Notes under the pieces: generated by a model
Databases searched by the model: none
Seen by the model: only the letters and a program-made list of their open reading frames with translations
What the model was told of the DNA's origin: nothing
Shown here: positions 8,681 to 33,486 of the stretch, one piece after another
Position numbering within the stretch: position 1 is the first letter of the stretch
Layout: the number at the start of each line of letters is the position of its first letter
DNA from: Defluviitaleaceae bacterium
GTDB taxonomy: Bacteria; Bacillota; Clostridia; Lachnospirales; WQUN01
Direction: 5' to 3'
Length of the DNA: 35,528 nucleotides
NCBI GenBank assembly: GCA_009788085.1
Contig: WQSB01000008.1
Coordinates: 1-35,528 of the forward strand
Translations under genes and position numbers: made by a program

Positions 8681-8727
8681 CAATTATTCTGGTAATCTTA
8701 AACAAAGACACAAACGGGAGGAATTGC

Positions 8728-10059: not shown

Positions 10060-10083
10060 AATAGGTATAAGGAGGCGTTCGAC

Positions 10084-13035: not shown

Positions 13036-13042
13036 AGGGAGC

Positions 13043-14335: not shown

Positions 14336-14354
14336 AAAATGAAAGGGGAGACAT

Positions 14355-16469
14355 ATGAAAGCCATTAGTAAATCGGTGCCCAAGCGGGACCATGCGGCAA
14401 AGATTTCCGGCAGCGCAGTGTACGTGGGCGACCATCCCACCGATGATTTATTATTCGGACGGATGCTGCGTTCGACAAAGGCCCGGGCGAGGGTGCTTGG
14501 TGTAAAGCTGCCGGTTTTGCCGGAGGGATATTTTTTCATTGACAAAAACGACGTCCCCGGCGACAACGAGGTACACATCATACTGGACGACAACCCTGTT
14601 TTTGTGGAAGAAATCGCGGAGCATATCGGCGACGTCATAGGAGTGCTGGCGGGGACGGATGAACGCGAGGTAAACATATTGCTAAAACAAATCGAAGTGG
14701 ATTATGAGGAGCTTGAGCCGGTTTTTGACCCGCGCAAATCCGATGTAGCTTTTTTTGACTTCGGATACGAAAAAGGCGACGCAGAAAAAGCCTTTGCGGA
14801 GGCGGACAAAATTTACGAAGAGGATTTCGAGACGGGCCTGCAAGAGCATATGTATTTAGAAACCAATGGGATTATTGCGGAATTTAAGGACGGCAAAATG
14901 TATGTGCGGGGCTCTTTGCAATGTCCGTACTTTGTACATCGTGCGGTTATGAAAGCCACGGGGCTTTCTTCGGAGAATGTAAGCGTTACCCAGGATGTAA
15001 TCGGCGGGGCCTTTGGCGGCAAGGAGGATTTCCCCTCAATTTTAGGCTGCCAAGTGGCCGTTGCGGCTTATAAAACCAAAAAACCCGTGCGCGTCGTCTT
15101 TGACCGTCATGAGGACATCGAGGGAACCAGCAAGAGGCATCCTTCTTTTTGCAATTACAAAGCTGCCGTAAAAGACGGGCAGGTTACGGCTTTGGAAATT
15201 GATGTGCTATACGACGCGGGAGCTTATGCCACCATGAGCATGGTTGTTTTGCAGCGGGGTATTATCGGCTGTGGCGGAGTTTACAATGTGCCAAATCTAA
15301 AGGTTCGCGGCCAAGCACGCAAGACCAATACCGTGCCAAACGGCGCGTTCCGTGGCTTTGGCGGCCCGCAGGTGTTTTTCGCAATCGAAATGCTGATGAC
15401 CCATATTGCCAAGGATTTACAAATGGATTCGGTAGATTTTAAATTAAAGCATGTGGCAAAACACAATGATTTAACCTCCACCAGCGGAAGATTCCACTTC
15501 CCCGTGCCCATTCCCGCCATGGTAAAGGACATCACGGAGGCCAGCGGTTATTATTCCAAAAAAGAAGCGTATAAAAACCAGTCCGGGCGTTTCCGCAGGG
15601 GCATCGGCCTAGCGGCGGTATATCACGGCGCGGGCTTCACGGGCAACGGCGAGCGGGATTTAATCAAGGCTGTGGTTCAATTGCGCAAAGACCGGGACGA
15701 TAATGTGGAAATCCTTACCGCTATCACGGAAATGGGACAGGGTGTGAACACTGCTTTTATTAAAATTGTGGCACAGGAGCTGGGCCTGCCGCCGGAGCGC
15801 GTAATTCTGGTGCCACCAGACACGGCACGAGTGCCCGACTCCGGCCCGACGGTTGCTTCCCGTTCGGTTATGACCGTGGGCGAATTGCTAAGACGGGCGG
15901 CAATCCGGCTAAAAGCCGAATGGCGCGACGGCGAAGAACAGCTAATCGAAGAGCATTACAAGCACCCGGAGTATATGATTCCCTTCGAAATGCCGGCTTT
16001 CCGTGGGGATGCCTACCCCACATATTCCTGGGCGGTCAACGCCGTCGAAGTGGAAATTGACACTTACACGGGATTTATAGATATCCTTGGGGCGTGGGGC
16101 AGCTTCGACGCAGGCACACCCATTGACGAAAACATTGTCATCGGGCAAATGGAGGGCGGTTTCCTTCAAAGCATTGGATACGCCATGATGGAGAAAATGA
16201 CCGCCGACAAGGGTTATATCCGCAACAATAATTTCAGTGACTATATAATCCCCACGGCTGTTGACGTGCCGAATATGCAGGTAAAACTCCATGTCGAGGA
16301 CTTCCCCCTTGGGCCATACGGCGCGAAGGGCGCGGGAGAATTGCCGCATGTGGGCGGTGCGCCGGCAGTTGCAGAGGCAATTCAGAACGCCTTGGGCGTG
16401 AACTTGCATAAAATTCCGTTTTTGGCGGAAGACGTAATGGACGTATTACGCCGTAAAGGGGGCATTTAG
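14355..16469 (+). CDS. xdhA: Xanthine dehydrogenase family, molybdopterin-binding subunit
   Basis: GGAFGGKED, NGAFRGFGGPQ, TEMGQGVNTAF, GPYGAKGAGELP motifs; followed by 2Fe-2S and FAD subunits. Confidence 0.92.
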   Translation: MKAISKSVPKRDHAAKISGSAVYVGDHPTDDLLFGRMLRSTKARARVLGVKLPVLPEGYFFIDKNDVPGDNEVHIILDDNPVFVEEIAEHIGDVIGVLAGTDEREVNILLKQIEVDYEELEPVFDPRKSDVAFFDFGYEKGDAEKAFAEADKIYEEDFETGLQEHMYLETNGIIAEFKDGKMYVRGSLQCPYFVHRAVMKATGLSSENVSVTQDVIGGAFGGKEDFPSILGCQVAVAAYKTKKPVRVVFDRHEDIEGTSKRHPSFCNYKAAVKDGQVTALEIDVLYDAGAYATMSMVVLQRGIIGCGGVYNVPNLKVRGQARKTNTVPNGAFRGFGGPQVFFAIEMLMTHIAKDLQMDSVDFKLKHVAKHNDLTSTSGRFHFPVPIPAMVKDITEASGYYSKKEAYKNQSGRFRRGIGLAAVYHGAGFTGNGERDLIKAVVQLRKDRDDNVEILTAITEMGQGVNTAFIKIVAQELGLPPERVILVPPDTARVPDSGPTVASRSVMTVGELLRRAAIRLKAEWRDGEEQLIEEHYKHPEYMIPFEMPAFRGDAYPTYSWAVNAVEVEIDTYTGFIDILGAWGSFDAGTPIDENIVIGQMEGGFLQSIGYAMMEKMTADKGYIRNNNFSDYIIPTAVDVPNMQVKLHVEDFPLGPYGAKGAGELPHVGGAPAVAEAIQNALGVNLHKIPFLAEDVMDVLRRKGGI

Positions 16470-16470
16470 T

Positions 16471-16947
16471 ATGGCAAACGAAATCAGATTTAAGCTGAAC
16501 GGCAGCGAGATTGTATACACCGGCAACCCATCGATGCGGCTGGTGGAGTATCTACGCGGTGAAAAACAGCTTACCGGCACAAAAATCGGCTGCAAGCAAG
16601 GCGAATGCGGGGCTTGCTCTGTAATCATGGACAGTGAGCTGGTAAATTCATGTCTTGTAGCCATGGGACGTGTAAACGGCGCGGAAGTTACAACCATTGA
16701 GGGTTATAGCAAGACTGAAAAATTCGCCGCGCTGGATAAGGCATTCGAATCGGTTTCCGCTGTGCAATGCGGCTTTTGCATTCCGGGCATGGTGCTGGCG
16801 TCGGAAAGTTTGCTTGCTTCAAACCCGCATCCCACGGAAGAGGAAATCCGAGAGGGGATTTCCGGCAATTTATGCCGCTGCACGGGTTACAATTCCATTG
16901 TAAAGGCCATAGAAATAGCGGCCGAGGAAGGGAGTGGGTTATGGTAA
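16471..16947 (+). CDS. xdhC: Xanthine dehydrogenase family, 2Fe-2S subunit
   Basis: GCKQGECGACSV and CGFCIPGM ... GNLCRCTGYNSIVKAIE. Confidence 0.95.
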   Translation: MANEIRFKLNGSEIVYTGNPSMRLVEYLRGEKQLTGTKIGCKQGECGACSVIMDSELVNSCLVAMGRVNGAEVTTIEGYSKTEKFAALDKAFESVSAVQCGFCIPGMVLASESLLASNPHPTEEEIREGISGNLCRCTGYNSIVKAIEIAAEEGSGLW

Positions 16948-17759
16948 AGGGGATTATCGCCAAATCACTTCGGGACGCGCTTGAGTTGCGCAAGGATTCC
17001 ACTTTTGTGCCCTATATCGGGGGCACTGATTTAATGGTGGAAGCGGATGAAAATAAAAGCTATCTTTTTTTGCACCAAGTCCCCGAAATGAAAAATATCG
17101 CAGAGGATGAGGAGTTTATCCGCTTTGGGGCGGCCTGTACTTTTACGGAAATCATAAAAAACCCGCTGTCGCCCATGATTCTCAAGCAGGCATGTAGACA
17201 AATCGGTGCGCCGGCCGTGCGCAACATGGGAAGCATCGGCGGCAATATCGGCAACGGCTCGGCCAAGGCCGACAGCGCGCTAATATGTATGGTTACGGAT
17301 TCAAAACTGCGGCTGGCCAGCGCGGACTCCGAAAGAATTGTGCCCATCAAGGATTTTTATCTTGGCCGCAAAAAGCTGAACCTCAACCCCGATGAGCTGA
17401 TTATCGAAATTTTAATGCCCAAGCACGGCTTGGAGAATTATTATCACGAAAAAGTGGGCGCAAGGAAAGCCCTGGCAATTTCGCGGGTATCCTTCGCCGG
17501 GATAATGGACATAAAAAACGGCGTGATTCAAAACAACGCCACCGCTTTCGGCGCGGTAAGCGATGTAATAATCCGCCTTGACACGATTGACAATATGCTA
17601 ATCGGAAAAACAATAGAGGAAGCCAAAAAACTGCGGGGGGATTACATCCAGGCCATAGGCGACGCCATTGTCCCCACCAGAGGCAGAGTCGGGATTGAAT
17701 ACAGAAAAGATGTATGTATAAATCTGCTCAAAAGCTTTCTGGAGGTCAGCGGGATATAA
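16941..17759 (+). CDS. xdhB: Xanthine dehydrogenase family, FAD-binding subunit
   Basis: YIGGTDLMVE, GAPAVRNMGSIGGNIGNGSAKADSA. Real start ATG 16941, overlapping the previous gene by 7 bp; the ORF listed from 16767 reads through the 2Fe-2S gene in another frame. Confidence 0.93.
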   Translation: MVKGIIAKSLRDALELRKDSTFVPYIGGTDLMVEADENKSYLFLHQVPEMKNIAEDEEFIRFGAACTFTEIIKNPLSPMILKQACRQIGAPAVRNMGSIGGNIGNGSAKADSALICMVTDSKLRLASADSERIVPIKDFYLGRKKLNLNPDELIIEILMPKHGLENYYHEKVGARKALAISRVSFAGIMDIKNGVIQNNATAFGAVSDVIIRLDTIDNMLIGKTIEEAKKLRGDYIQAIGDAIVPTRGRVGIEYRKDVCINLLKSFLEVSGI

Positions 17760-18711
17760 GCGAGTGGTATTCCGCAAAGATGTTTTTGGTGATTTCGATA
17801 AAATCGTTAAAGTGAACAGATATAGGTTTGTCGCAAAAGTGTATAAGAGCAATGTCGCAATTGATTAGTATATTTTGTACCGGAAAAGCCAAGACATTGT
17901 TTAGCGCGCCGGAATAATGCGCTGCGGTATGACGCAGAATGGTTTGTGACATAAACATCCCCGCATTACCGGCACTACATAAAGGCAGCAAGGACAGCAC
18001 ATTGCTGGATTCGACAGCGATATTAGGCTTTGCCCTGAGTTTAATATATTCCTGCATAATTTGGGAGTGAATTTGGGATTTGCCGGGATTTAGGATAATG
18101 GGAATATTTTGAATTTCATCAAGCCGAACTCCCTCCGCGAGGGCTGCCTCCATTCGTTGCTCGGGAAACTCGTATTGGAAAAGAAGCTTTCGCGACGCAA
18201 GGAAGTACAGCTTCCTGTCTTGCAAAAGGGTTGTTGATGTGAGTATGCGGTTTTGCGAAGTGCTTGTATCGTCCAAGCCTATTATAAAATCAATTTTGCC
18301 GTCCATAAGGTCTTTTATTAGATTCGTGGTATGGTCCTCTCTTAGAGACAGCTCCACAAGAGGATGAAGCTCGTTAAACCTAGAGTATATTAGAGGGAAG
18401 AATATGGGCGCGCGGGTGGGCGTGACTCCCACCCGTATTCTTCCTTTTTGCTGAGAACGAATATGGCTAAATTCCGCCAGCAGCCGCTCTTCGTGGTAAA
18501 GAGACCGGCTTATATATTCCAAAAGCAGCTCCCCGGCATGAGTCAGGTGCAACTTTGGCTTGCGCCTAAAAAGCTGAATACCATAACGCTCCTCCAAACG
18601 CTTGATATACTCGCTTAAGCTTTGCTGTGATATATGCAAATTTTTTGCCGCCTTGGTAAAGCTTCTTTCCCTCGCAATTTCTTCAAAGTACCGGAAATAA
18701 TGTGTGTACAT
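17746..18711 (-). CDS. LysR family transcriptional regulator
   Basis: N-terminal wHTH (YFEEIARERSFTKAAKNLHISQQSLSEYIKRLEERYGIQLFRR) and substrate-binding domain. Convergent with xdhB, 14-bp overlap. Confidence 0.93.
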   Translation of the reverse strand: MYTHYFRYFEEIARERSFTKAAKNLHISQQSLSEYIKRLEERYGIQLFRRKPKLHLTHAGELLLEYISRSLYHEERLLAEFSHIRSQQKGRIRVGVTPTRAPIFFPLIYSRFNELHPLVELSLREDHTTNLIKDLMDGKIDFIIGLDDTSTSQNRILTSTTLLQDRKLYFLASRKLLFQYEFPEQRMEAALAEGVRLDEIQNIPIILNPGKSQIHSQIMQEYIKLRAKPNIAVESSNVLSLLPLCSAGNAGMFMSQTILRHTAAHYSGALNNVLAFPVQNILINCDIALIHFCDKPISVHFNDFIEITKNIFAEYHSLISR

Positions 18712-18716
18712 ACATT

Positions 18717-18763
18717 CACAACCTTTCCCCTGTATTACATTATATTACCATTTAACAGAGTTA
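18717..18763 (+). repeat. Third, internally deleted copy of the 88-bp promoter-like repeat
   Basis: CACAACCTTTCCCCTGT (16/17 match to 20865-20881), then ACATTATATTAccaTTTAA...GAGTTA matching the 3' half, with the middle missing. Confidence 0.55.
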
Positions 18764-18901: not shown

Positions 18902-19924
18902 TCATGATAAATCATTCAATACTTCAAGCCTACCAGCTATTTCATCGGGGGTAGGCAATAGGTCTTTCAAGTTATCAGGCAGGATGTTGTACATACCATA
19001 TGTCGCAACGCCTATCGGCACATCGGCGGTTTTCAGCGCGTACTCAACGATGGTACGGCTCTTGCCTTTGCATATAATAATTCCGATTGACGGATTTTCG
19101 TCCGGCAACTTCTTTGTTTCATTTAATGCGGTAAGGTAGAATTGCATCTTTCCTGCGTACTCCGGCTCAAATTTACCAATTTTAAGGTCTATGGCTACAA
19201 GGCAACGCAATCGCCTATGGAACAAAAGCAAGTCAATATGAAAATCTGTATCGTCAACGACCAAGTGATACTGGCTGTCAATAAAAGCAAAATCTTCGCC
19301 GATTTCCCTCAAAAACGCTCTAATATTTTTCACTAAAGCAGCTTCCAATTCTGCTTCTCTGTGTTCAAGCCCCATTTCGAGGAAGTCAAAATTATAATCG
19401 TCTTTGACTGCCAATTTTGCTTGCTGGCGATATTTTTCGGGAACAGTATCGTCAAAATTTGTTTGGTTCAGCAAGTATTTTTCATAGGCTTTATTCTCAA
19501 GGTTGTTCGTCAAAACATCTTTCGTCCAGCCATACTTCCGAACAGCCTTAATGTAAAATTCACGTTCCAAATAATCCTTGCAACGCTCCATGATGATGAT
19601 ATTTTTGCTCCAGCTAATTTCTCGCACCAATGGTGCGAGTTTTTCATTTTCGTGATAATTCAAGTAAAAATTACGCATACGCCACAAGTTGCCTGCTGAA
19701 AATCCTTTTACGCCGGGAAATTCAAGTTGGAGTTCTTTCGCCAAAACTTCAACGATTGATTTCCCCCAACCTTTTTCCTGCTGTTGGTTATGAATTTCCT
19801 CGCCAATTTCCCAATAAAGGTTAATCAATTCCTTATTTACAGCTTTCATGGCTTCGTACTGCCGCCTGTAAATAAGGGTCTTGATTTCCGTTATGAGGTC
19901 TTTGTAAATAATCAAGTCTTGCAT
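18902..19924 (-). CDS. PDDEXK nuclease domain-containing protein, DUF1016/YhcG family
   Basis: N-terminal AVNKELINLYWEIGEEIHNQQQEKGWGKSIVEVLAKELQLEFPGVKGFSAGNLWRMRNFY; C-terminal DFHIDLLLFHRRLRCLVAIDLKIGKFEPEYAGKMQFYL (D-xn-D-x-K core). Confidence 0.93.
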   Translation of the reverse strand: MQDLIIYKDLITEIKTLIYRRQYEAMKAVNKELINLYWEIGEEIHNQQQEKGWGKSIVEVLAKELQLEFPGVKGFSAGNLWRMRNFYLNYHENEKLAPLVREISWSKNIIIMERCKDYLEREFYIKAVRKYGWTKDVLTNNLENKAYEKYLLNQTNFDDTVPEKYRQQAKLAVKDDYNFDFLEMGLEHREAELEAALVKNIRAFLREIGEDFAFIDSQYHLVVDDTDFHIDLLLFHRRLRCLVAIDLKIGKFEPEYAGKMQFYLTALNETKKLPDENPSIGIIICKGKSRTIVEYALKTADVPIGVATYGMYNILPDNLKDLLPTPDEIAGRLEVLNDLS

Positions 19925-19978
19925 CTAACCCACCCTTCATATCATAAATCCTAGAAAAAAGGAACTCAACAAAATATA

Positions 19979-20098
19979 CTCAACTGCCCTGCTTGCGGTA
20001 AAACATCGGTTTTTGAGAAGCAATGTGAAAAGGGGCATAGTATTTTCCAGCCAGTAGAGCTTTGCTTTTGTGGAGACCCGTTCGTTTATCTGCTTTGA
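19979..20098 (+). pseudogene. Zinc-ribbon-like coding remnant without a canonical start
   Basis: Frame reads LNCPACGKTSVFEKQCEKGHSIFQPVELCFCGDPFVYLL*. It is open upstream only to a TAA near 19925 with no ATG/GTG/TTG. Confidence 0.4.
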
Positions 20099-20123
20099 CG
20101 GTGATGTGCCGTCTTGTTATAAT
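20095..20123 (+). promoter_or_regulatory. Near-consensus sigma-A promoter
   Basis: TTGACG (20095-20100), 17-bp spacer, TATAAT (20118-20123), 37 bp upstream of ATG 20161. Confidence 0.65.
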
Positions 20124-20160
20124 GAGTATAATATCTAAAGTCTCAGAAAAGAGGTGTAGA

Positions 20161-20421
20161 ATGAACGAAAAAGACAGAGCAATAGATTATAGCGACATTC
20201 CGGCAATTACTGATTTTTCAAGCGCACGCAAAAATCCTTATGCCGACAAAATAAAAAAATACGGCTATACGGTACGGATTCACTACAGCCCGGAAGATGT
20301 AGCTAATATGAATGCCCTCGCTATTGAAAAAATTGATGGGTTAGAGGATATGGAATGGCTTGACCTTGACCCTAACGAGATAAGGGCTCTGAAGAAATAT
20401 CGTGAAGCTAACAAGGCTTGA
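20161..20421 (+). CDS. Small antitoxin-like protein (BrnA-like N-terminus), orphan
   Basis: MNEKDRAIDYSDIPAITDFSSARKNPYADKIKKYGYTVRIHYSPEDV...; RBS AGAGGTG. Start 20161 preferred over the listed 20062, which would precede the promoter. Confidence 0.6.
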   Translation: MNEKDRAIDYSDIPAITDFSSARKNPYADKIKKYGYTVRIHYSPEDVANMNALAIEKIDGLEDMEWLDLDPNEIRALKKYREANKA

Positions 20422-20451
20422 GGTGCATCCAAATCATCGGAAATATCAACT

Positions 20452-20712
20452 CTATACATTGTGCTTTTCCTTTAACCGCTGAAGGGAATCCTTTGCGTTT
20501 TGGGCGCGTCCGGCGGCAACATCCGCTTCGGATTCGGCAAGTTTGCTGTAGATGTCATGCATGAATAATTTTTCTTGATACATTTTCATACTCATGATGA
20601 CCATATCACCATAACCGTTTTTGGTGACATAAATGGGTTCGCGGGATTCTTGGCACATTTGAGAAATTGCGCCAGTATTTTTCAAATCACGGATTGGAAT
20701 AATTTGCGGCAT
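20452..20712 (-). CDS. Phd/YefM family antitoxin, orphan
   Basis: MPQIIPIRDLKNTGAISQMCQESREPIYVTKNGYGDMVIMSMKMYQEKL matches the Phd/YefM pattern; no toxin ORF next to it. Confidence 0.82.
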   Translation of the reverse strand: MPQIIPIRDLKNTGAISQMCQESREPIYVTKNGYGDMVIMSMKMYQEKLFMHDIYSKLAESEADVAAGRAQNAKDSLQRLKEKHNV

Positions 20713-20801
20713 AAGACCACTCTCCTTTGTGGCATTATTATCCCACAATTGTGTGCAATTATCAAGACATGAACGAAGCAATAATGGCATACCATATTTG
20801 A

Positions 20802-20848
20802 GTCACCAGCCAAGATGCAGTATATGTGCATGGTTGGTGGCTTTTTTT
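20802..20848 (+). terminator. Rho-independent terminator-like hairpin
   Basis: CACCAGCCAAGATGCA-gtatatg-TGCATGGTTGGTGG followed by CTTTTTTT. Confidence 0.65.
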
Positions 20849-20864
20849 ATTTGACGCTACCTGT

Positions 20865-20952
20865 CACAACCTTTTCCCTGTGAACTTAACAAAATAAAAT
20901 CTATTGCCAGTATTAGCACATTATATTATCGTTTAATTGTGCAAAGTTAATG
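20865..20952 (+). repeat. 88-bp promoter-like intergenic repeat, copy A
   Basis: Ungapped alignment with 25543-25630: 72 of 88 positions identical by hand count, including CTGTGAACTT, TCTATTGCC, CATTATATTA and TTGTGCAAAGTTA-type blocks. Confidence 0.85.
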
Positions 20953-21053
20953 TATGACAGATAGGAGGATTAGGAAAATCTGAACAAAAGTGACAAAATA
21001 AGCTGCATTTTAACAATCAAACAAAATAAAAGGAGACAGGGAGGATTTTAATT

Positions 21054-24000
21054 ATGGCAATAAAGAAAGAAATGCAAAAATTCATTGCGCTGGCACTTTC
21101 TCTTTTGATGGTGTTCGGGGTCGTACCGGTTTCGGCCGGGGTTTACGGCTATGAAAATGGCTACGGAAACGCCTATACCGAACAAGGCTACTACATTGAG
21201 GATGGCGACCACACCCAGGGGGATTATACCAAGGAAAGCACTTATCCTCCTAAACAAGACAACTACGGACAAACAGAAGAGCAAGTTCTACCTTCTGACC
21301 AATGTTGCCCACCCCCGCAAGGTGACTATTCACTTGCACCAGTTATACAAAGCGGCTTTGCCGGAATAATCGCTGCAAGTATAAGCAGTGAGGTATTTTT
21401 GGCTTGGAATTATACCAATCCCACCGCATCCAATGTGTACAACTGGCCTGCAACATCCGGGGCGACAGCTGCTTTAACAACACTGGAATTTTTTTATGCC
21501 AATGGAGAAGTGGCAGAGCTTGGCCACGCTAACCGGGCAGCAGTCAATGCGCCAGGCGTTGCAGCCGGATGGTTCCCTGCCGGTGATGGTGCTATAAACG
21601 CGAACAACGCGGGAGGCTGGCGGTTTACCCTCAGCACCTTGGGTCAGGAAAACATTACGTTCTCCGCCCAACAAGGCTCAAGTAACAACGGGCCGCGTGA
21701 CTTTGGATTAGCTTACAGGCTTAACACAACAGGGTCATGGACTTCATTTGGCCCCGGCTGGGCAAACACCATTCTTGTTAGTGACGGCCCCGGATTTGGG
21801 ATGACAAACACCTTTGAAAATGTCCAATTACCCAGCACTACGTTTAATCAACCTTTTGTGCAAATAAAAGTTTATGTCGCAAGCAGAGCCAGACGTTCTG
21901 ACGGCGTGCTTTCATTGGCCCCGAATGGCGGCAACACATCTATTAACAATGTCGTTTTCAGTGGAGAGGCTATTGAAATACCATACACTGTTGCCGGTGT
22001 AGTAGTTTCTCCCAGAACTGCGGAAGTGGCGGTGGGTACGACTCAGCCATTCCAAGGAAACGCTATTGTGGTAGGAACAACCGGTTCCGCGCTTAGCACC
22101 ACCGTAACTTGGAGCGTAACCGGCAACGAAGCATCCGGTACGAACATCAACAGCAACACCGGTCTACTAACTGTAGCTGCCAATGAAACGGCTGACACCC
22201 TGACCGTAAGGGCAACTTCCGTAGCGACCACCAGCATGTATGCCACCGCAGAGGTTACGGTTTATGCACCGGATGAGGCGGTCTTTTTGGCTTGGAATCA
22301 TACTTCAGCCACCTTTACAGCCGGTGCATTGTACTTGCGCGCCACTCATGGTGCCGCAAGAGATACATCAATGCTTGAGTTTTTCTATGCCGGAGGCCTA
22401 CGGGCGACCTTGGGTACAGGAAATATGATTAACGTTCCAAACAATGCCTCCGGATGGTTTCCGACCCCCGTGGAAGCAACCACCGCAAACAATTCAGCAG
22501 GCTTCCAAATCACTCTCAGCACTTTAGGCCACAGCAATATCACATTCTCTGCCCAGCAATCCTCAAGCAATAACGGCCCCGCCGAATTTGGATTGGCTTA
22601 CCGGCTGGGAACAACAGGGCCATGGAGAGATATTGGTGTACGTGAGCTGGTTTTTAACGAGCACCCTGATGGCAGAGGAGACACCTTTGTTGATGTTCCG
22701 CTGCCCGCTACTGTAAACAACCAGGCAACTGTACAAATCAAAGTCTTTATTGCAAGCAATCTAAGACGTTCCGACCATGCGCCAGACTTGCCCGTGGCAG
22801 GCGGCAACACTTCCATTAACAACATTGTCTTCAGCTCACATGATACGCCTCCGGCACCGGCCGTCCTTGGCGTAGTGGTTGACCCCAGATTTGAGGTAGT
22901 AGAACCGGGGCAAACTCAGCAGTTTACGGCAGATGTTGTTACGGTAGGCGGCGTGACCAATACCGCCGTAACATGGCTTTTGGATGGTGGGGTAACAGGC
23001 ACAACCCTCAGCGACACTGGCCTATTAACTATAGCTGCCGATGAAACTTATTGCACCTTATTCATAACGGCAACTTCCGTTCACGACAACACTGTGTACG
23101 GATGGGCTACGGTGCTTACCGAAGAGCCGGGATTGCCACCATTGGAAATGGACTTTGAAATAGCGTTTCTGCTTGACGCTTCACGGGTGCTTTACGATTG
23201 CGGCGGCTTTAGGCTTCATTACCGCGAATTGCTACTTGGCGGCGCGGGCACCGCAGCAACCGGTGGACTACCCGGCCGCGAGCGTATACTCACCATCCAG
23301 TGGATGGATACGCCAGACCAAGTTTTCAGCCAGTACGGCTGGATTAACCGTGTCCGTCACAGAGACTGGCAGCCCAACCCCTTCCAAGTGACTTACAGAA
23401 ACAGAATACCCCTCGTAGGCCCCGTTTCTGAAGAGTCGATACAGGCCGCAATGGACATTGCCTATTCGCAAGGCTTTGGTAGCGGCTGGGATTTTGAGGT
23501 TGACTGGAGTTACGACTCTGCGGTGCTGTCTTTGACACACTCCCCTGCACAGCTGTCATACGCACGAATCGGCGATAACAGAGGCCCCGTCACTGATATA
23601 ATCACCAATCCCCTTCCCACAGAGGAGTTTGCAAGGGAGTTGCTGGCAACCTACATTCCAACCGCGCTGATTAATGCCGTCAACATCTCAAGCCTCGAGT
23701 GGTATCTGGAAAACCTTGAGCGCGTTGTGGCTCACGGCCCCGTTATCTACAGAAGATATGACAACAGAAGCCCCATAGGATGGAGCACCCCAGACAACAT
23801 CGGCCTTACCATTGAAGTAATGCCACTAAGAACCGAATGCGGCACCGGCATTGAATACATCGTTGAGGCGTCAGTCTCGTTCGAAGACGCAACTGTCGAG
23901 GAAGTTTATGCAGTACGTGCAGAGCTTCAAGAACTGCTTGAATACCTAGATATTCTTGAACCCAGAAGCGGCCTTAGAACATCAACGGTTTTGGCTAGAT

Positions 24001-25085
24001 ACGCGCGCACTTGCGAATGTGACGCCAATGCTTGCCGTAGGCCCGGTACAGGATGCGGCTTGGCAAATTGCACATGCACCCCCGTCGCAGGTCATGTCCC
24101 CGACAATGGCGCAGGAGCCGGCCCCGTCGTGACACCACCACCAACGGCGGTTACACCCGATGACGAACCAGCCCCGCCGCCACCAACGGAAGAAGAAAAC
24201 CACGAGGATGTTCTCGACCAGTTGGACGAATTAGGCGAAGACGACGAGCCTGTCATAGTAATCACACTGCCAGAGGGCGTTGACGATGTGCTTCTTTCTG
24301 CCGAAACCATTGAAATTTTGGTTGAAGCCGAAGCAGCCCTTGATATCGTAAGCGGAACCGTAACGGTGACGATATCATCTGATTTCCTAGACGCTCTGCT
24401 GGAAGATGAAAGCAGCAGCTTCATCGTACGCATTGCCGAAACCGTCCACGACGATGACGGCGAAGAACCGGGCGACGATGACGTTCAAGTATTCGTAACA
24501 GCCGAAATAACCATAATACGTGACGGCGAAGAGGTAGAGAGTGTTGGCATACCATACACTATTACCGTGGATATGTCCGGCTTTGACATCGAAGACCTCA
24601 ACCCCGCCCGCATCGTGCTATTGATTGACGGCATCCCCGTTGGCGGCACGTTTGACCCGGAAACAGGACAGTTTTCAATTGACACCGTCCTTTATACAGG
24701 GCTTTTGGAAATAGTCTACGTGCCCAACCTCCGCAGAGTCAGCATGGCTCTGGACTCCCCGATTATCGTGGACGCAGTCTATGGCACCATCACCAATATG
24801 GGCGCACTACCCGATAATGCTGATGGCCGCGCAATGATTCCGGCGCGTTTCGTAGCCGAAAGCCTTGGCGCGGATGTGCAGTGGGATACCCACAACCACA
24901 GGGCAATAATTGTCCTAAACGGCCAAGAGCTCATCCTCGCCCCCGGCCAAATGATGCCCGGAATGGATGTCCCCGCTTTCATTGAGGACGGCCGAATGAT
25001 GCTGCCCCTACGCTTCGTAGCAGAATTCTTCGGCGCAACCGTCATTTTCAACGACGACACAAGAGAGATTGAAATTATCCTGTAA
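21054..25085 (+). CDS. Large secreted multidomain protein: duplicated jelly-roll/Big2-like modules, central CYTH/VTC-like domain, Cys-rich and Pro/acidic linker, C-terminal stalk (copper amine oxidase N-like) domain
   Basis: Signal peptide (MAIKKEMQKFIALALSLLMVFGVVPVSAG); two VFLAWN...NITFSAQQ.SSNNGP modules, Big2-like segments, MIPARFVAESLGADVQWD...MMLPLRFVAEFFGATVIFNDDTREIEIIL stalk repeats. RBS GGGAGG. Confidence 0.88.
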   Translation: MAIKKEMQKFIALALSLLMVFGVVPVSAGVYGYENGYGNAYTEQGYYIEDGDHTQGDYTKESTYPPKQDNYGQTEEQVLPSDQCCPPPQGDYSLAPVIQSGFAGIIAASISSEVFLAWNYTNPTASNVYNWPATSGATAALTTLEFFYANGEVAELGHANRAAVNAPGVAAGWFPAGDGAINANNAGGWRFTLSTLGQENITFSAQQGSSNNGPRDFGLAYRLNTTGSWTSFGPGWANTILVSDGPGFGMTNTFENVQLPSTTFNQPFVQIKVYVASRARRSDGVLSLAPNGGNTSINNVVFSGEAIEIPYTVAGVVVSPRTAEVAVGTTQPFQGNAIVVGTTGSALSTTVTWSVTGNEASGTNINSNTGLLTVAANETADTLTVRATSVATTSMYATAEVTVYAPDEAVFLAWNHTSATFTAGALYLRATHGAARDTSMLEFFYAGGLRATLGTGNMINVPNNASGWFPTPVEATTANNSAGFQITLSTLGHSNITFSAQQSSSNNGPAEFGLAYRLGTTGPWRDIGVRELVFNEHPDGRGDTFVDVPLPATVNNQATVQIKVFIASNLRRSDHAPDLPVAGGNTSINNIVFSSHDTPPAPAVLGVVVDPRFEVVEPGQTQQFTADVVTVGGVTNTAVTWLLDGGVTGTTLSDTGLLTIAADETYCTLFITATSVHDNTVYGWATVLTEEPGLPPLEMDFEIAFLLDASRVLYDCGGFRLHYRELLLGGAGTAATGGLPGRERILTIQWMDTPDQVFSQYGWINRVRHRDWQPNPFQVTYRNRIPLVGPVSEESIQAAMDIAYSQGFGSGWDFEVDWSYDSAVLSLTHSPAQLSYARIGDNRGPVTDIITNPLPTEEFARELLATYIPTALINAVNISSLEWYLENLERVVAHGPVIYRRYDNRSPIGWSTPDNIGLTIEVMPLRTECGTGIEYIVEASVSFEDATVEEVYAVRAELQELLEYLDILEPRSGLRTSTVLARYARTCECDANACRRPGTGCGLANCTCTPVAGHVPDNGAGAGPVVTPPPTAVTPDDEPAPPPPTEEENHEDVLDQLDELGEDDEPVIVITLPEGVDDVLLSAETIEILVEAEAALDIVSGTVTVTISSDFLDALLEDESSSFIVRIAETVHDDDGEEPGDDDVQVFVTAEITIIRDGEEVESVGIPYTITVDMSGFDIEDLNPARIVLLIDGIPVGGTFDPETGQFSIDTVLYTGLLEIVYVPNLRRVSMALDSPIIVDAVYGTITNMGALPDNADGRAMIPARFVAESLGADVQWDTHNHRAIIVLNGQELILAPGQMMPGMDVPAFIEDGRMMLPLRFVAEFFGATVIFNDDTREIEIIL

Positions 25086-25108
25086 AACGTAACAAGCACC
25101 AAAAAAGC

Positions 25109-25145
25109 AAAGCGGCACGAGGAAAAATCCTTGTGCCGCTTTTGT
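25109..25145 (+). terminator. Rho-independent terminator of the secreted-protein gene
   Basis: AAGCGGCACGAGGA-aaaa-TCCTTGTGCCGCTTTTG immediately after stop at 25085. Confidence 0.85.
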
Positions 25146-25190
25146 TATAAATGATATTATTTGCAAATACTTTGTGGGGGCGTGTAGAAA

Positions 25191-25340
25191 ATGAATGAAA
25201 TCCAACTTGGTAAGGTTGCCGTCCGGGTTTCCCAGAGCGGTAAATATTTTGCCCGCTCACTCTTTACCCGAAACCGCGCCAAGGTAGATAGCTTCATTGC
25301 CAACGGCACTCTAAAGGCATTGACACAAGGACAGGCATAG
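25191..25340 (+). CDS. Small ORF (49 aa) of unknown function
   Basis: ATG..TAG: MNEIQLGKVAVRVSQSGKYFARSLFTRNRAKVDSFIANGTLKALTQGQA. Not in the ORF track (below size cut-off); weak RBS. Confidence 0.35.
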   Translation: MNEIQLGKVAVRVSQSGKYFARSLFTRNRAKVDSFIANGTLKALTQGQA

Positions 25341-25367
25341 ATTATAGTTGAGGCGGATATACTGTAT

Positions 25368-25452
25368 TGAGAATCGGAGGACGGAACGGGCGGCCGTCGC
25401 CCCCCATAAGAAGTTAGGAGATGTGGGAACTGTCACCCCACCTGATTCTCGT
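25368..25452 (+). ncRNA. Candidate structured RNA domain, unknown family
   Basis: Closing stem GAGAATC (5') with GATTCTC (3'); internal ACGG...CCGT and GTGGG-aactgtca-cCCCAC hairpins. Confidence 0.35.
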
Positions 25453-25478
25453 GGCAATTAAAAGGTCTAACGGCCTGT

Positions 25479-25525
25479 TAAAGAAAGACGCTTCCTAAAC
25501 TGGAAGTGTCTTTCTTCGCTTTTAA
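25479..25525 (+). terminator. Strong Rho-independent terminator
   Basis: AAAGAAAGACGCTTCC-taaact-GGAAGTGTCTTTCTT followed by CGCTTTTAA. Confidence 0.75.
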
Positions 25526-25542
25526 GTGCACTTTTTGCATCC

Positions 25543-25630
25543 CACAGCCTTTTACCTGTGAACTTCACAAAATTTAGTCTATTGCCTAAATTTATGCATT
25601 ATATTATTGTATAATTGTGCAAAGTTACTG
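25543..25630 (+). repeat. 88-bp promoter-like intergenic repeat, copy B
   Basis: See copy A; here it contains ATTATA-ttattg-TATAAT and is followed by AAGGAGG and a GTG start. Confidence 0.85.
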
Positions 25631-25654: not shown

Positions 25655-26239
25655 GTGATTATACCACGATGGGAATGGCGCACGTTTGGCCAAGAGTTTG
25701 GTGAGGCGGAAGAAAAAATTAATCGGCATGAAAAGGGGGGGTTCAAGAAGAGCGAAGAGAAGTATATATTGTCAAAAGCAAGCAACGAAAATGTAAAAAT
25801 TCGCGACGATTTAATTGATATCAAAACCTTGAAGCAGGTAAACGGCGACAAGCTCGAGCAATGGTATCCGGCAATGAAAGAGGGTTGCCCCATCTCTAAG
25901 GAAAAGCTGGAGGTTTTGTTCCGCGACTTTTTCAAGGTAACGATACCGGAGTTTAAGAGGGACATTTACACCTACACAGAGTTTCTGGAGGAGTTGGTTA
26001 TCCCCTGCGAGCAACTGTGCATCGTAGATGTTTACAAAGAGCGTCAGGCATATGAAATAAACAATGCCACCGTGGAAATTGCCGAAACAAAATTTAACGG
26101 GGTTCCCATGCGCACCATTTGTGTGGAGCACACTGACCCGGCCAATGTAATAGCCACTGTGCGCGAGCTCAGCCTTGCCGGGTTTGAAAATATCAACTAT
26201 ATTAACGCCATGAAAACTGCTGTTGGGGTACCCTTATGA
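25655..26239 (+). CDS. CYTH-like domain protein (putative triphosphate/polyphosphate-binding), partner of Ppx
   Basis: IPRWEWRTFGQEFG...NVKIRDDLIDIKTLK...IVDVYKERQAYEINNATVEIAETKFNG...TICVEHTDPANVIATVREL, with a CYTH-like K-x-R/charged beta-strand rhythm. GTG start with AGGAGG; overlaps ppx by 4 bp. Confidence 0.6.
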   Translation: MIIPRWEWRTFGQEFGEAEEKINRHEKGGFKKSEEKYILSKASNENVKIRDDLIDIKTLKQVNGDKLEQWYPAMKEGCPISKEKLEVLFRDFFKVTIPEFKRDIYTYTEFLEELVIPCEQLCIVDVYKERQAYEINNATVEIAETKFNGVPMRTICVEHTDPANVIATVRELSLAGFENINYINAMKTAVGVPL

Positions 26240-27153
26240 GCAGAAAAGCAATAATAGATGTAGGGTCTAATTCCATCAAATTCTTTTTGGGCGAAGTCGG
26301 ACAGGACGGCACAGTTCAAGCCGTAATAGATGAAAACGACATTGTCCGCTTGGGCGAGGGCCTACGCGAAACCGGGGTAATAAGCACCGAGGCAATGCGG
26401 CGTAACAGCGAAGCCATATCCAGGTTTGCGGAAAAAGCCCGCGCAAACGGGGCTGACGAGATTGTATGCGTCGGAACCATGGCGTTGCGCAATGCAAAAA
26501 ACACAGATGAGTTTGTAAAGCTTGTCAAGGAAACCAGCGGTATTCAGCTTTCCGTCATTCCGGGCGGGGAAGAAGCCAGACTGGCCTATTTGGCCGTGCT
26601 TTCCGGCCTCCCCCTTCAAGACGGAAAACTTGCCATTTTTGACACCGGCGGCGGCAGCACCGAATTTGTTTTTGGTGAGTGCAAAGCGGTAAGTAAACGG
26701 TTTAGCGTAGATTTGGGGGCTATCCGTATTACGGAAAAATATTTTAAGGCAGACCCCGTTTCGAAATCGGACGTTAGTGCCGCCATCCAAGAAATTGACA
26801 GCGTTTTTGCCGAAAATGATGTCTGCGGCAACGTGTCACAGCTTGTGGGCATGGGCGGAACCGTAACCAGCATGGGTGCCGTAAAACACAAAATGGCCAA
26901 GTACGACCCGGATGTGATTCAAGGCTCTACGCTTACGCTGACCGACGTGGAAGAACAAATCGAAGCTTACAGTTCAAGAACCATCGAAGAACGCAAGGAT
27001 ATTGTAGGCTTGCAGCCCAAACGCGCCGATGTTATTTTGGCCGGGGCCTGCATTTTAAAGGTAATCATCAGCCGCCTAGGCGTGGATAAGCTGACCATCA
27101 GCGACCGCGGCCTAAGGCACGGAATGGCTTTTGATATGTTTGCAAAAAAATAA
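26236..27153 (+). CDS. ppx: Ppx/GppA family exopolyphosphatase / guanosine pentaphosphatase
   Basis: AIIDVGSNSIKFFLGEV, IPGGEEARLAYLAVLSGL, LAIFDTGGGSTEFVFGE, VGMGGTVTSMGAV. Confidence 0.93.
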   Translation: MSRKAIIDVGSNSIKFFLGEVGQDGTVQAVIDENDIVRLGEGLRETGVISTEAMRRNSEAISRFAEKARANGADEIVCVGTMALRNAKNTDEFVKLVKETSGIQLSVIPGGEEARLAYLAVLSGLPLQDGKLAIFDTGGGSTEFVFGECKAVSKRFSVDLGAIRITEKYFKADPVSKSDVSAAIQEIDSVFAENDVCGNVSQLVGMGGTVTSMGAVKHKMAKYDPDVIQGSTLTLTDVEEQIEAYSSRTIEERKDIVGLQPKRADVILAGACILKVIISRLGVDKLTISDRGLRHGMAFDMFAKK

Positions 27154-27174: not shown

Positions 27175-28287
27175 ATGAGAAAGACCTTAGTTTCACTGTT
27201 TGCAATTCTGCTGTTTTCCGTCGCGCTGGCACTTACCGGTTGTGGCGGTAACGAGCCTGCGGCTCCGGCACCTGCGCCGGCCCCCGCACCTGCACCACCC
27301 CCGGCTCCAGCCCCCGCACCTGCACCTGCGCCGGTTGCCACACCAGAACCACCACCACCAGATATGACCCCACAAGAGCATCTGGCTTCCATCTGGCAGC
27401 CCACCGGCCCCATTACCATTTTGACCCACGTAGCACCCGGCGGCGGTATGGACGTAGCCACACGTTTGCTTATTGACATTGCAATGCGCAACTATACCGA
27501 TGCTACTTTAATCGTAGAAAACATGGCCGGCGGTGCAACCCGTCTCGCCTCCACAGAAGCCTTGAGCCGCCCCGCGGACGGATACACAATCTTCGGTGCA
27601 GCAATGTCTAACGTAAACAATGCTGTTGCCCACGGTTGGCCCTTAGAGCAGTACATTGACGGGTATTACTGGATTGCCAAAATCCAAAGAGACCCTGCTG
27701 CTATTATCATCACAAACGAAGCCCGCGACGCAGGTATGGACTTCCACGGTATTCTTGAGCAAGCCAGAGAATTGGACGGCGGACAAATTTGGGCCGTTCC
27801 AATGCTAGGCGGAAACAAACACTTTGAAGCTTTGCTTACATGGCAAGCCACCGGCGTAACCGGCACGGCTATTCCTTTCGAGTCCGGCCCCCTTGGTGCG
27901 GCAGCCGTACTTGGTGGCGAAGCTCATGTGCAAATGGGTAATCCATTTGACACAGCAGGCCGCGACTTGTGGGTAGCCGCAATTGCTTCCCCCGAGCGTA
28001 TGCCCGGCTTTGAAGATTCCCCCACTTTTGCAGAACTTGGCTTCCCTCAACTTAACGACATGCACATGTGGCGTGGTTATGCAGTAAGAAGAGGCACACC
28101 GCCAGAAATGATTCAATGGTTCCAACAACTTATCTATCTTGTTGCTCAAAACCCAGAATGGGTAGAATACAACGCAGGCAATGCTATTGCCCCAACAGCA
28201 GTATTCACCCAAGAGTTTAGAGAAGTCATTCAAGAGACCATGGATATAACTGAATACTGGTTAAGATATCTGGGCATGTTAGATTAA
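27175..28287 (+). CDS. tctC: Tripartite tricarboxylate transporter substrate-binding lipoprotein (TctC/BUG family)
   Basis: Lipobox LTGCGG; APAPAP linker; ITILTHVAPGGGMDVATRLL...VENMAGGATRLASTEALSRPADGYTIFG. Confidence 0.92.
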   Translation: MRKTLVSLFAILLFSVALALTGCGGNEPAAPAPAPAPAPAPPPAPAPAPAPAPVATPEPPPPDMTPQEHLASIWQPTGPITILTHVAPGGGMDVATRLLIDIAMRNYTDATLIVENMAGGATRLASTEALSRPADGYTIFGAAMSNVNNAVAHGWPLEQYIDGYYWIAKIQRDPAAIIITNEARDAGMDFHGILEQARELDGGQIWAVPMLGGNKHFEALLTWQATGVTGTAIPFESGPLGAAAVLGGEAHVQMGNPFDTAGRDLWVAAIASPERMPGFEDSPTFAELGFPQLNDMHMWRGYAVRRGTPPEMIQWFQQLIYLVAQNPEWVEYNAGNAIAPTAVFTQEFREVIQETMDITEYWLRYLGMLD

Positions 28288-28317
28288 ATTTTTTGTATCT
28301 CTCGAATATACGAAAAT

Positions 28318-28348
28318 AGCACGGGCGGCTCAAAAAGCCGCCTGTGCT
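28318..28348 (+). promoter_or_regulatory. Intercistronic hairpin between tctC and tctB, no U-tract
   Basis: AGCACGGGCGGCT-caaaa-AGCCGCCTGTGCT: 13-bp stem with one G-U pair. Confidence 0.8.
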
Positions 28349-28384
28349 GTATCGTAACGAAGGATGCCAAAGGAGGGCTTTGGT

Positions 28385-28975
28385 TTGACGGAGCTTTTTA
28401 CGACAATTGGAACATGGTTTGAAGAATTGGCTTTGCCGCTTCATTTTCTGTTGCTGGCTGTTTTTTTAGGCTTGATACTTGGGGTTATTCAGCTTGTCAA
28501 GAGACTACACCCCTATAGAGGCCAGCTGATGGTCTTGGCGGGGATTTTTTGGGTTTTCCTTGTATTTTATTTTATTACGTACACTTTTCCCGTGCCTAGG
28601 GGAATCTTGGTCGGCATGACCCCCGGAAGCACGATTCCGCGTCTGTGGTTTTACTCGTTGCTGCCTGTTATTGTACTTACCCTAATCCCCATCTTCCGAA
28701 ACAAAGAAGAAGTTGACCCAAAATGGGGAAATATGCGACTTATAGCCATTGTGTTTACCGTGCTGGTGATTAGTGTCGGCCTGTTTAATTTCATCGGTTA
28801 CTACATTAGCTCGGCGTTGTTTATTGTTACTGTTATGTGGATACTTGGCTCGCGCAACAAGGTTGAGCTTATCGCGGTACCCGCGGGCTGGATTGTGTTT
28901 TCATATTTGGTTTTTGCAAGGCTGTTAAGTGTTAGGCTGCCTGTCGGCAGTATTATAGAGAATATTATAGGTTAG
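28385..28975 (+). CDS. tctB: Tripartite tricarboxylate transporter TctB family protein
   Basis: Small four-TM-type protein between tctC and tctA; TTG 28385 after AGGAGG preferred over ATG 28364. Confidence 0.83.
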   Translation: MTELFTTIGTWFEELALPLHFLLLAVFLGLILGVIQLVKRLHPYRGQLMVLAGIFWVFLVFYFITYTFPVPRGILVGMTPGSTIPRLWFYSLLPVIVLTLIPIFRNKEEVDPKWGNMRLIAIVFTVLVISVGLFNFIGYYISSALFIVTVMWILGSRNKVELIAVPAGWIVFSYLVFARLLSVRLPVGSIIENIIG

Positions 28976-28989
28976 GGGGCTTACGACAA

Positions 28990-30552
28990 ATGGAGCTTCT
29001 TAGTAATTTAGCCGCTGGCATGGGTGTCATGTTTGCGCTTATGCCGCTGTTGATGGTTTTTGTGGGCGTTGTTGTGGGCATTATACTCGGCACCATCCCC
29101 GGAATCTCAACTTCCATGGCAGTTGCCCTTTTATTGCCTTTTACTTTCACAATGAATCCCATAAACGCCATGGCATTACTGCTTGGCTGCTACAAAGGCG
29201 GCAACTATAGCGGATGTATACCGGCGGTGACTATCAACACGCCGGGTACGCCGTCTTCCGTGCCCACCCTTTTTGACGGTTATCCCATGTCAAAATCCGG
29301 GCGGGGAGGCGAGGCACTTGGTATTTTGCTTTGGTCTTCCTTTGTGGGCGGTGTGTTCGGCTCGGTAATTTTGGTCTTGTTTGCGACGCCTATGGCACGG
29401 TGGGCCCTTAACTTCTGGTCTGCGGAATACTTCGCGCTGTGTGTGCTGGGTCTTGCGACTGTTGCTACACTGGGCGGAAAAAACTGGCCAAAGGCACTGG
29501 TTGCCGTACTTTTTGGTTTGCTAATCAACACCATGGGTACGGACCCAATGCTTGGCTTCCCGCGTTTCACCTTTGGCGTGGTTCGATTGTTTGACGGTAT
29601 CCACTTGATGCCGGTAATGATTGGATTGTTCGCGCTGGGTGAGCTTTTCCACAATATTGAAAACTATAAAGTAACTGACCAAAAATTTGAAAAGCATACC
29701 TATGTGTACCCCAACATGCTGTACTATTGGAAATTGAAATGGTCCATGCTTAGAGCCAGCGTTGTGGGCACTATAATCGGCATTTTGCCCGGTGCGGGAA
29801 GTGCCATCGCTTCTTTTCTAGCTTATGATTTTGAAAAACGTATCAGCAAAAATTCCAAGCAGTTTGGCAAGGGTGCGCCTGAGGGCGTTGCCGCCTCCGG
29901 CGCGTCCGACAGCGCGAATACCGGCGGCTCGCTGGTGCCGATGCTGGCACTTGGTATACCCGGCGCGCCTACTGTGGCGGTTCTTATGGCGGCACTTATG
30001 ATTCACGGCTTAAACCCCGGGCCGGAGCTTTTTGCCACCGCTCCCGACCTTGTGTACGGCATGTTTGCCACCATGTTCATATCCAGCTTTTTCGTGTTGG
30101 TTATAGGCTTCCTTGGTACAAAGCTTTTTGTGCGCACCACCAACATTAAAAAGCCCATACTTTATACGCTTATATTCCTGTTTACGATTATAGGCAGCTA
30201 TGCTATCAGAAGCTCTATGCTGGATGTGGGAATGACAATTGGCTTTGGCGTTATTGGCTGGCTGTTTAAGCGGTACAATTATCCGGTTGCACCGGTGGTG
30301 CTGGGTGTAGTGCTTGGGCGCATCATGGAAATGAACTTCCGCCAAGCTATGATGAGAGACGGCATAGAAAGCTTCTACACCCGTCCTCTTACGCTGATTT
30401 TCCTGTCTTTGGCCGTGTTGTCGGTTATTGTGCCCATTATTCAAGAGCGCAGGGCCGATAAAAAAGCAGCATTATCAGCCGCAGCGGCCACAGGCGCGAC
30501 AGTGGCAATCGAGACTGTAACTGTCGAGACTGATAAGGAAGACGAAGCATGA
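28990..30552 (+). CDS. tctA: Tripartite tricarboxylate transporter permease TctA
   Basis: GIILGTIPGISTSMAVALLLPFTFTMNPINAMALLLGCYKGGNYSGCIPAVTINTPGTPSS, GILPGAGSAIASFLAYDFEKRISK. Confidence 0.96.
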   Translation: MELLSNLAAGMGVMFALMPLLMVFVGVVVGIILGTIPGISTSMAVALLLPFTFTMNPINAMALLLGCYKGGNYSGCIPAVTINTPGTPSSVPTLFDGYPMSKSGRGGEALGILLWSSFVGGVFGSVILVLFATPMARWALNFWSAEYFALCVLGLATVATLGGKNWPKALVAVLFGLLINTMGTDPMLGFPRFTFGVVRLFDGIHLMPVMIGLFALGELFHNIENYKVTDQKFEKHTYVYPNMLYYWKLKWSMLRASVVGTIIGILPGAGSAIASFLAYDFEKRISKNSKQFGKGAPEGVAASGASDSANTGGSLVPMLALGIPGAPTVAVLMAALMIHGLNPGPELFATAPDLVYGMFATMFISSFFVLVIGFLGTKLFVRTTNIKKPILYTLIFLFTIIGSYAIRSSMLDVGMTIGFGVIGWLFKRYNYPVAPVVLGVVLGRIMEMNFRQAMMRDGIESFYTRPLTLIFLSLAVLSVIVPIIQERRADKKAALSAAAATGATVAIETVTVETDKEDEA

Positions 30553-32183
30553 GCATCCCTACTAATGTTCAATATGTTTTCTTGATTTTTGGCGGCTTGG
30601 GCCTGTTTTTATACGGCATGAAAATGATGATGGTTGGCTTGGAGGAGTTGGCCGGCAACCGTATGCGCACGATAATTGAGCGCGCCACATCCAACCGCTT
30701 TCTTGGAATAGGAGTCGGGGCCATTGTCACCGTCCTCATTCAAAGCTCTACGGCCACATCGGTTATGGCAGTCGGGTTTATTAATGCGGGGCTAATGACT
30801 CTTGCGCAGGCCATCAGCATTATTATAGGCGCGCATATTGGCACGACTCTTACCGCGCATCTGTTTGCTTTCCCGGGCATAACCGCTGTCGCGCCACTGT
30901 TTATTTTCTTCGGCCTTGTTATGTATTTGTTCCTGAAGAAAAAAGTGGTTAAGGATACCGGGTTTATAGTGCTGGGCGTGGGCATTCTGTTCTTTGGCCT
31001 TTCGGTAATGGGCGACCCCCTGCGAATGTTCGCCCAGACGCCGGGCTTCCAGTCGGTGCTTACCGCTTTTGCCAATCCGATTCTGGCGGTGCTGGCGGGT
31101 TTCCTTTTTACCGCTGTTATACAAAGCTCCACGGCGGCCACAGGCATTCTGATTGCCATTTTGCATGGTGATGTTTATTTGAGCTTTACCACCGCCGCGT
31201 TTTTAGTGCTGGGCATCAGTGCGGGCACTACCATTACAGCGGTGCTGGCCTCCTTTGCCGGTAAACGCGAAAGTAAGCGCGCAGCACTTGCAAATTTAAT
31301 TTTTATCACCATAGGCTGTGTTGTTTTTGGTGTGCTGATTCACGTTTTCCCAGGTGTTTTGGGGTGGTTTACAAATACATGGGACGATAACGCGGTGCAA
31401 CTGGCTTGGTTCTATACCTTCTTTAAGGTGGGGCTGACATTAATGTTTCTGCCCTTTGTCGGGCATTTGGCGGCACTCATGTACAAGATTATACCCAAGC
31501 GCACAAAATGGGTTGACGCAAAGCATCTGGTTTTCATTAAAAGCGACAGCGGCACAACACCCGCCGTGGCTATCGACCAAGCTTACAATGAGCTCAAACG
31601 CATGGGCACCATGACGTTAATCAACCTTGAGCTTGCCCTTGACGCATTCCACACAGGCGACGATGAAAGGGTTGCCGGTGTGCTTGAAGGGGAGTCGTCG
31701 ATTAATTTCCTTAACCGTCAGATTACCTCCATGCTGATGGAACTGCAAAATGTGGAATCGGCTGCCGACATGAAAAAACTAAGCACACTCCTGTACATTG
31801 CCTCCGACGTAGAAAGAATCGGAGACCACGCTCAGAATATCGCCACCTATGACATTCGCACAAAGAAAAAGAAAAAACTGCGGCTCTCCCCAGAGGCTAT
31901 GACGGAGCTTAGCACACTTGGCAGCGAAGTTGTAAAAATGGTGACATTAACAATAGAGGCCTTTGATGTCCGCACAGAGGAGCATATTCAGCGGATTAAT
32001 GAGTATAAGAACGAAATTAATGAGCTGTGCAAAGAGTACACCAAAAACCATGTCAAGCGTCTTAAAACTGAAAAAAGCGACCCGCGTGGCGGAATCGCCT
32101 TTGTTAATATGCTTTCAGACTTGGAACGCTGTGCCGGCCACGTTGAAAATATTGTCGAGTATTTCGAGGATAAAGCGGTTTAA
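30549..32183 (+). CDS. Na/Pi cotransporter family protein with PhoU-like C-terminal domain
   Basis: Inverted repeat IQSSTATSVMAVGFINAG / IQSSTAATGILIAIL; C-terminal helical domain YIASDVERIGDHAQNIATYDIRTKKK...DLERCAGHVENIVEYFEDKA. ATGA overlap with tctA. Confidence 0.92.
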   Translation: MSIPTNVQYVFLIFGGLGLFLYGMKMMMVGLEELAGNRMRTIIERATSNRFLGIGVGAIVTVLIQSSTATSVMAVGFINAGLMTLAQAISIIIGAHIGTTLTAHLFAFPGITAVAPLFIFFGLVMYLFLKKKVVKDTGFIVLGVGILFFGLSVMGDPLRMFAQTPGFQSVLTAFANPILAVLAGFLFTAVIQSSTAATGILIAILHGDVYLSFTTAAFLVLGISAGTTITAVLASFAGKRESKRAALANLIFITIGCVVFGVLIHVFPGVLGWFTNTWDDNAVQLAWFYTFFKVGLTLMFLPFVGHLAALMYKIIPKRTKWVDAKHLVFIKSDSGTTPAVAIDQAYNELKRMGTMTLINLELALDAFHTGDDERVAGVLEGESSINFLNRQITSMLMELQNVESAADMKKLSTLLYIASDVERIGDHAQNIATYDIRTKKKKKLRLSPEAMTELSTLGSEVVKMVTLTIEAFDVRTEEHIQRINEYKNEINELCKEYTKNHVKRLKTEKSDPRGGIAFVNMLSDLERCAGHVENIVEYFEDKAV

Positions 32184-33481: not shown

Positions 33482-33486
33482 ACTTA

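Follow-up and report, generated by a model that had tools for sequence, protein, structure and literature searches.

A 35,528-nt stretch of contig WQSB01000008.1 (positions 1-35,528, forward strand) of a Defluviitaleaceae bacterium (GenBank assembly GCA_009788085.1), analysed over its whole length and called the window below, raises the question why two transcription units that encode unrelated proteins are preceded by nearly the same intergenic DNA. One copy of this 88-bp element (copy A, 20865-20952, plus strand) lies upstream of the gene for a 1343-amino-acid (aa) secreted protein, the other (copy B, 25543-25630, plus strand) upstream of an operon encoding a CYTH-type protein, a Ppx phosphatase, TctCBA and an Na/Pi cotransporter. 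Judging from sequence and from its position in related genomes, the element is very probably a duplicated operator-promoter of the LysR type.

The two copies agree at 72 of 88 positions in an ungapped alignment, exactly as counted in an initial annotation of this DNA. For copy A, the runner-up 88-mer in the window reaches 42 matches and 200 shuffles yield at most 45. A search of the whole genome (2.92 Mb in 229 contigs, 93% complete) with copy A returned copy B at E 1.4e-18 and all other sites at E of at least 0.33; a third full copy was not found in this search. The similarity sets in abruptly at CACA and extends to about TTA-TG, and the sequence AGGAGGATT follows its end in both copies with an offset of 1 bp. 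Each full copy is located upstream of a gene on its own strand and, as the initial annotation had also pointed out, downstream of a terminator-like hairpin with a T-rich tail. These hairpins are found on the plus strand at 20800-20843 for copy A (-24.1 kcal/mol; 20800-20850 including the T tract) and at 25481-25516 for copy B (-23.4 kcal/mol; annotated as 25481-25522). The genes behind the two copies are indeed not duplicates, and their proteins have no Pfam family in common. The same promoter DNA is thus found before non-homologous genes of one genome, as in promoter propagation.

The likely origin of the element can be read from related genomes. Orthologs of the CYTH protein (25655-26239) occur in 4 of 60 related genomes. 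The window also encodes a LysR-type regulator (lysR, 17746-18711, minus strand; Pfam HTH_1 and LysR_substrate), a candidate for the control of copies A and B, and its orthologs are found in exactly these four genomes (5 of 61 when the genome under study is counted). The four (L060, L061, L063 and L064) are metagenome-assembled genomes (MAGs) of Defluviitaleaceae, presumably of termite-gut origin as far as isolate names and general knowledge tell. In all of them lysR and CYTH are divergent neighbours with the element in between, in the same orientation and at the same position relative to CYTH as copy B, so that in the ancestral arrangement the regulator is divergent from its adjacent target. 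A sequence-only model (R2), trained on the intergenic regions of L060, L061 and L063 alone, was used to scan the genome under study. The top two matches are copy B (E 1.2e-11) and copy A (E 7.6e-11), followed by a third at E 0.44. Because it is matched by R2, copy A is a recognisable lysR/CYTH intergenic region in front of an unrelated gene. The shared regulatory cassette that the initial annotation had proposed is thereby supported from two sides, by the conserved position in relatives and by the genome scan.

CYTH loci of other lineages (L062 and L065-L068) are without the element, and lysR was not detected on the DNA examined there; as the contigs are short in some cases, the absence of lysR is certain for the examined DNA only. 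A further candidate in the same-genus genome G001 (L015, G001:C17, E 5e-4, upstream of a gene for a 181-aa secreted protein) was rejected as a chance match, since it scores only 10.4 bits with the model and that genome lacks orthologs of lysR and CYTH. The remaining weak model matches in relatives are short, AT-rich and partial, occur across nearly all genomes and were likewise attributed to chance.

Copies A and B and the elements of L060, L061 and L063 align without gaps as far as the -10 region. From 5' to 3', the element is composed of a CACA-N10-TGTG dyad, an overlapping T-N11-A box, an AT-rich spacer, a -35 region, 17 bp and a -10 region. In copy A these are the 18-mer dyad (20865-20882), the box TGTGAACTTAACA (20879-20891), TTGCCA (20904-20909) and TATCGT (20927-20932). 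The corresponding parts of copy B, recognised in the same way, are the dyad (25543-25560), the box TGTGAACTTCACA (25557-25569), which is a perfect palindrome, TTGCCT (25582-25587) and TATTGT (25605-25610). The first dyad takes the form CACAA-N8-TTGTG in three relatives. Two dyads are conserved, CACA-N10-TGTG and TGTG-N5-(C/A)ACA, both upstream of the -35 region; L061 and L063 lack an imperfect dyad that had been suggested around the -10 region. The T-N11-A box is in register in all six full sequences (A, B and the four relatives), which also have TTGnC in the -35 region in common (TTGCC[AT] in A and B, TTGACT in L060). The -10 region reads TAYYGT or TACAGT, and the spacing is 17 bp in five of the six. 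A sigma-A-type promoter is accordingly found in A and B (TTGCC[AT]-17-TAYYGT) and in equivalent form in L060, L061 and L063, with L064 deviating. All centre positions refer to a start assumed 7 bases past the -10 region; in both copies they come to -65.5 for the 18-mer dyad and -54 for the T-N11-A box. All six full sequences have a palindromic T-N11-A site in the neighbourhood of -65, before the target promoter.

The differences between A and B are unevenly distributed. They affect 2 of 32 columns that are invariant in the relatives versus 13 of 42 variable columns (Fisher p 0.0095). By region, they are found at 0 of 7 positions in the -35 part, 1 of 13 in the -10 part and 3 of 31 in the operator part, compared with 7 of 11 in the spacer between -35 and -10. 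Over the aligned region A and B share 61 of 76 positions, and either copy shares 45-52 of 71-74 with any relative. Since the two are closer to each other than to the relatives, either the element was duplicated within this lineage or A and B have been kept similar.

The usual binding site of LysR-type activators is a T-N11-A palindrome that is centred near -65 and overlaps the promoter of the divergent regulator gene, and in the case of ThnR several target promoters carry the same primary site (PMC4834489). The present locus resembles this model in the divergent position of regulator and target in relatives, in a T-N11-A-type site near -65 before a weak -35/-10 pair and, as for ThnR-type regulators, in more than one promoter with the same site. 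Unlike in the model and in ThnR, the regulator has been parted from the operon and the operator-promoter copied to a non-homologous neighbour. The element would accordingly combine an operator with a core promoter, through which the LysR protein encoded at 17746-18711 would control the CYTH-Ppx-TctCBA-Na/Pi operon. LysR could bind the half-sites of CACA-N10-TGTG and T-N11-A at about -75 to -48 and, together with a putative inducer, contact RNA polymerase at the weak TTGCC/TAYYGT promoter and thereby switch both units. It most likely acts on the two units from equivalent operator-promoters, where we infer LysR binding, activation and the start sites; activation as the sign of control is proposed by analogy with the LysR family. 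The phosphate-related operon and the secreted-protein gene would then probably be switched together. In this lineage the element would have been duplicated and DNA inserted between lysR and the operon, an order of events that we infer. The outcome would be three sites: copy B at the operon, copy A before the 1343-aa gene and, beside lysR, a relic with a deletion (copy C).

Copy C (18717-18756, plus strand) and the lysR gene lie beyond the coordinates of the initial annotation. Copy C first surfaced in the genome search as two weak fragments (18716-18733, E 0.62; 18737-18755, E 4.0) and is matched in order by R1 at 18717-18734 and 18736-18754. It retains the lysR-proximal CACAACCTTTCCCCTGT, at a distance from the lysR ATG (5 nt) that is also seen in L063, as well as a CATTATATTA part and the -10 region, and lacks some 36-38 bp that include the T-N11-A box and the -35 region. 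A distance of 7 kb separates lysR from the operon in the window. The DNA between them holds the 1343-aa gene and a small RNA as well as genes for YhcG/DUF1016 and a Phd/YefM-like antitoxin; these last two, of which YhcG/DUF1016 is nuclease-like, occupy 18902-20721 between lysR and copy A.

Duplication of a LysR-type operator-promoter is favoured by the identity of the repeats, their restriction to two copies, the co-occurrence with lysR, the R2 result, the spacing of the promoter parts and the sparing of conserved columns. Several points weigh against it. The start sites are assumed. Two dyads overlap, the T-N11-A box at -54 and the 18-mer at -65.5, and either could be the primary site. The -10 matches are weak, and in L064 the stretch with -35 and -10 is 5 bp shorter, so that a different -10 would be needed there. 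As the locus is found in four relatives only, the conservation of columns is partly a matter of kinship. Finally, LysR control may be confined to one of the two copies.

The alternative that survives best, though it is improbable, regards A and B as direct repeats left behind by recombination, with copy A having no regulatory role. For instance, a circular DNA with copy A, the secreted-protein gene and the small RNA could have integrated by crossing over at the promoter. The copies are indeed direct repeats, 4678 bp apart, which flank a single gene of patchy distribution. Moreover, AGGAGGATT at 20963 lies away from the gene start and resembles a relic of the CYTH ribosome-binding site. However, the differences between A and B avoid the columns that are invariant in relatives, and copy A retains the operator, the -35 region, the spacer length and the -10 region and faces a gene start, whereas copy C, whose target was lost, has decayed by deletion. 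Recombination also accounts for the origin of the copies rather than for their function, and its account of the origin is compatible with a duplicated LysR-type operator-promoter.

Recognition of the element by a different regulator, such as the phosphate-responsive PhoP/PhoB, with lysR as a mere neighbour, is very unlikely. The Ppx, Na/Pi and PhoU functions of the operon would fit such control, as would TTAACA/TTCACA-like words within the element, but a tandem 11-bp repeat in the style of a Pho box is not visible in it. The T-N11-A box, on the other hand, is near the position expected for LysR, and element and lysR are present together in all five genomes and both missing at L062 and L065-L068. 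Membership of the element in a mobile or REP-like repeat family, suggested by the near-duplication of intergenic DNA and named in the initial annotation as what would speak against a regulatory cassette if copies were scattered, has practically no chance and is refuted for this genome as assembled (93% complete), where only two full copies occur in 2.9 Mb, both of them preceding a gene on their own strand, and where the source locus is identified from relatives.

Copying of promoters has been encountered in other settings. Promoter propagation, in which promoter-sized stretches are found before non-homologous genes of one genome, was reportedly described by Matus-Garcia et al. in 2012. In contrast to it, the present case has two full copies within 5 kb, an identified source locus with a candidate regulator and no sign of independent mobility. 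Horizontal regulatory transfer of intergenic regions likewise places regulatory DNA in front of another gene; here, the copying is local and inside one genome. Control of this type is well known, and the copying of promoters had been described earlier; the locus is a well-documented new instance and not a new mechanism. As source, relic and copy are all contained in 7 kb and relatives retain the undisturbed arrangement, it would show how copying of an operator-promoter recruits a gene to an existing regulator.

The operon behind copy B starts with the CYTH gene (25655-26239, plus strand). AGGAGGATT at 25642 is its ribosome-binding site, in agreement with the initial annotation. The encoded protein has no Pfam or NCBIfam family match. 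Its AlphaFold model (predicted local distance difference test, pLDDT, 93.9) has the fold of a triphosphate tunnel metalloenzyme (TTM). The best Foldseek matches are TTM/thiamine-triphosphatase structures (E 5e-6), and nearly all of the 31 chains with E <= 1e-3 are annotated as TTM, thiamine triphosphatase or putative adenylate cyclase. Downstream, on the same strand, are genes for a Ppx/GppA phosphatase (26236-27153; Pfam E 2e-63), for TctC, TctB and TctA of a tripartite tricarboxylate-type transporter (27175-30552; Pfam) and for an Na/Pi cotransporter with a PhoU domain (30549-32183; Pfam, NCBIfam). The order CYTH-Ppx-TctC recurs in L060, L061, L062, L064 and L066, with names read from translations. 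No publication on the CYTH-Ppx-Tct-Na/Pi operon was found. A CYTH-Ppx-Tct operon whose CYTH protein is 72% identical to that of the window is present on L062 (WQWD01000047.1), a contig that belongs to a MAG classified as Treponema; this is either a lateral transfer between phyla or a case of misbinning.

The gene behind copy A (21054-25085, plus strand) begins with ATG at 21054 and has its own Shine-Dalgarno sequence, GGGAGGATT, at about 21039-21047. In this copy, AGGAGGATT at 20963 has no start codon close behind it and is not the ribosome-binding site of the gene, as which it had originally been read; it may have been left over from the CYTH ribosome-binding site of the source locus. The 1343-aa protein is a chimaera with a signal-like segment at its N-terminus, a core at about aa 693-986 and a C-terminal Cu_amine_oxidN1 domain (Pfam). 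Its mosaic character is also apparent near the C-terminus, where about 195 aa match part of a 2268-aa open frame on G000:C65 at 76% identity, and in its N-terminal and repeat regions, which are found again in many large open frames of relatives. The core is without a match in the 60 related genomes, in profile and family searches and in a profile comparison with the CYTH protein, and its predicted structure is poor (pLDDT 34.8). A CYTH-like pattern in the core (DT...G..NRVRH...VTYRNR) had suggested a second CYTH domain, for which fold prediction and profile and family searches gave no support. The gene is patchily distributed and probably of lateral origin.

A relative of the core is found on L062, where a 377-aa protein encoded directly upstream of CYTH is 28% identical to aa 693-986 (E 5e-26). 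The adjacency of this relative to CYTH on L062, together with the adjacency and the copied promoter in the window, hints that the secreted protein and the CYTH-Ppx-Tct-Na/Pi operon belong to a shared pathway. It is conceivable, if rather doubtful, that the secreted protein and the cytoplasmic operon are halves of one undescribed system for the use of extracellular phosphate esters or polyphosphate, united more than once in termite-gut bacteria, one of which we take the source organism to be. An uncharacterised secreted protein is thereby tied to an uncharacterised operon by a testable functional link.

A candidate small RNA of the Skipping-rope family (RF02924, 62.8 bits) is located between the secreted-protein gene and copy B (25370-25449, plus strand). 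It is preceded by a strong promoter-like sequence, TTGACA-17-TATAGT (25320-25348), and followed by the terminator hairpin at 25481-25516. A single copy was found in the genome, compared with three on one contig of the same-genus genome G001. The locus as a whole is flanked on both sides (8644-17759 and 32549-34500) by genes of the molybdenum-hydroxylase type and for the molybdenum cofactor. The former encode xanthine dehydrogenase-like subunits, two amidohydrolases and a pyridine-nucleotide oxidoreductase with Fer4_20.

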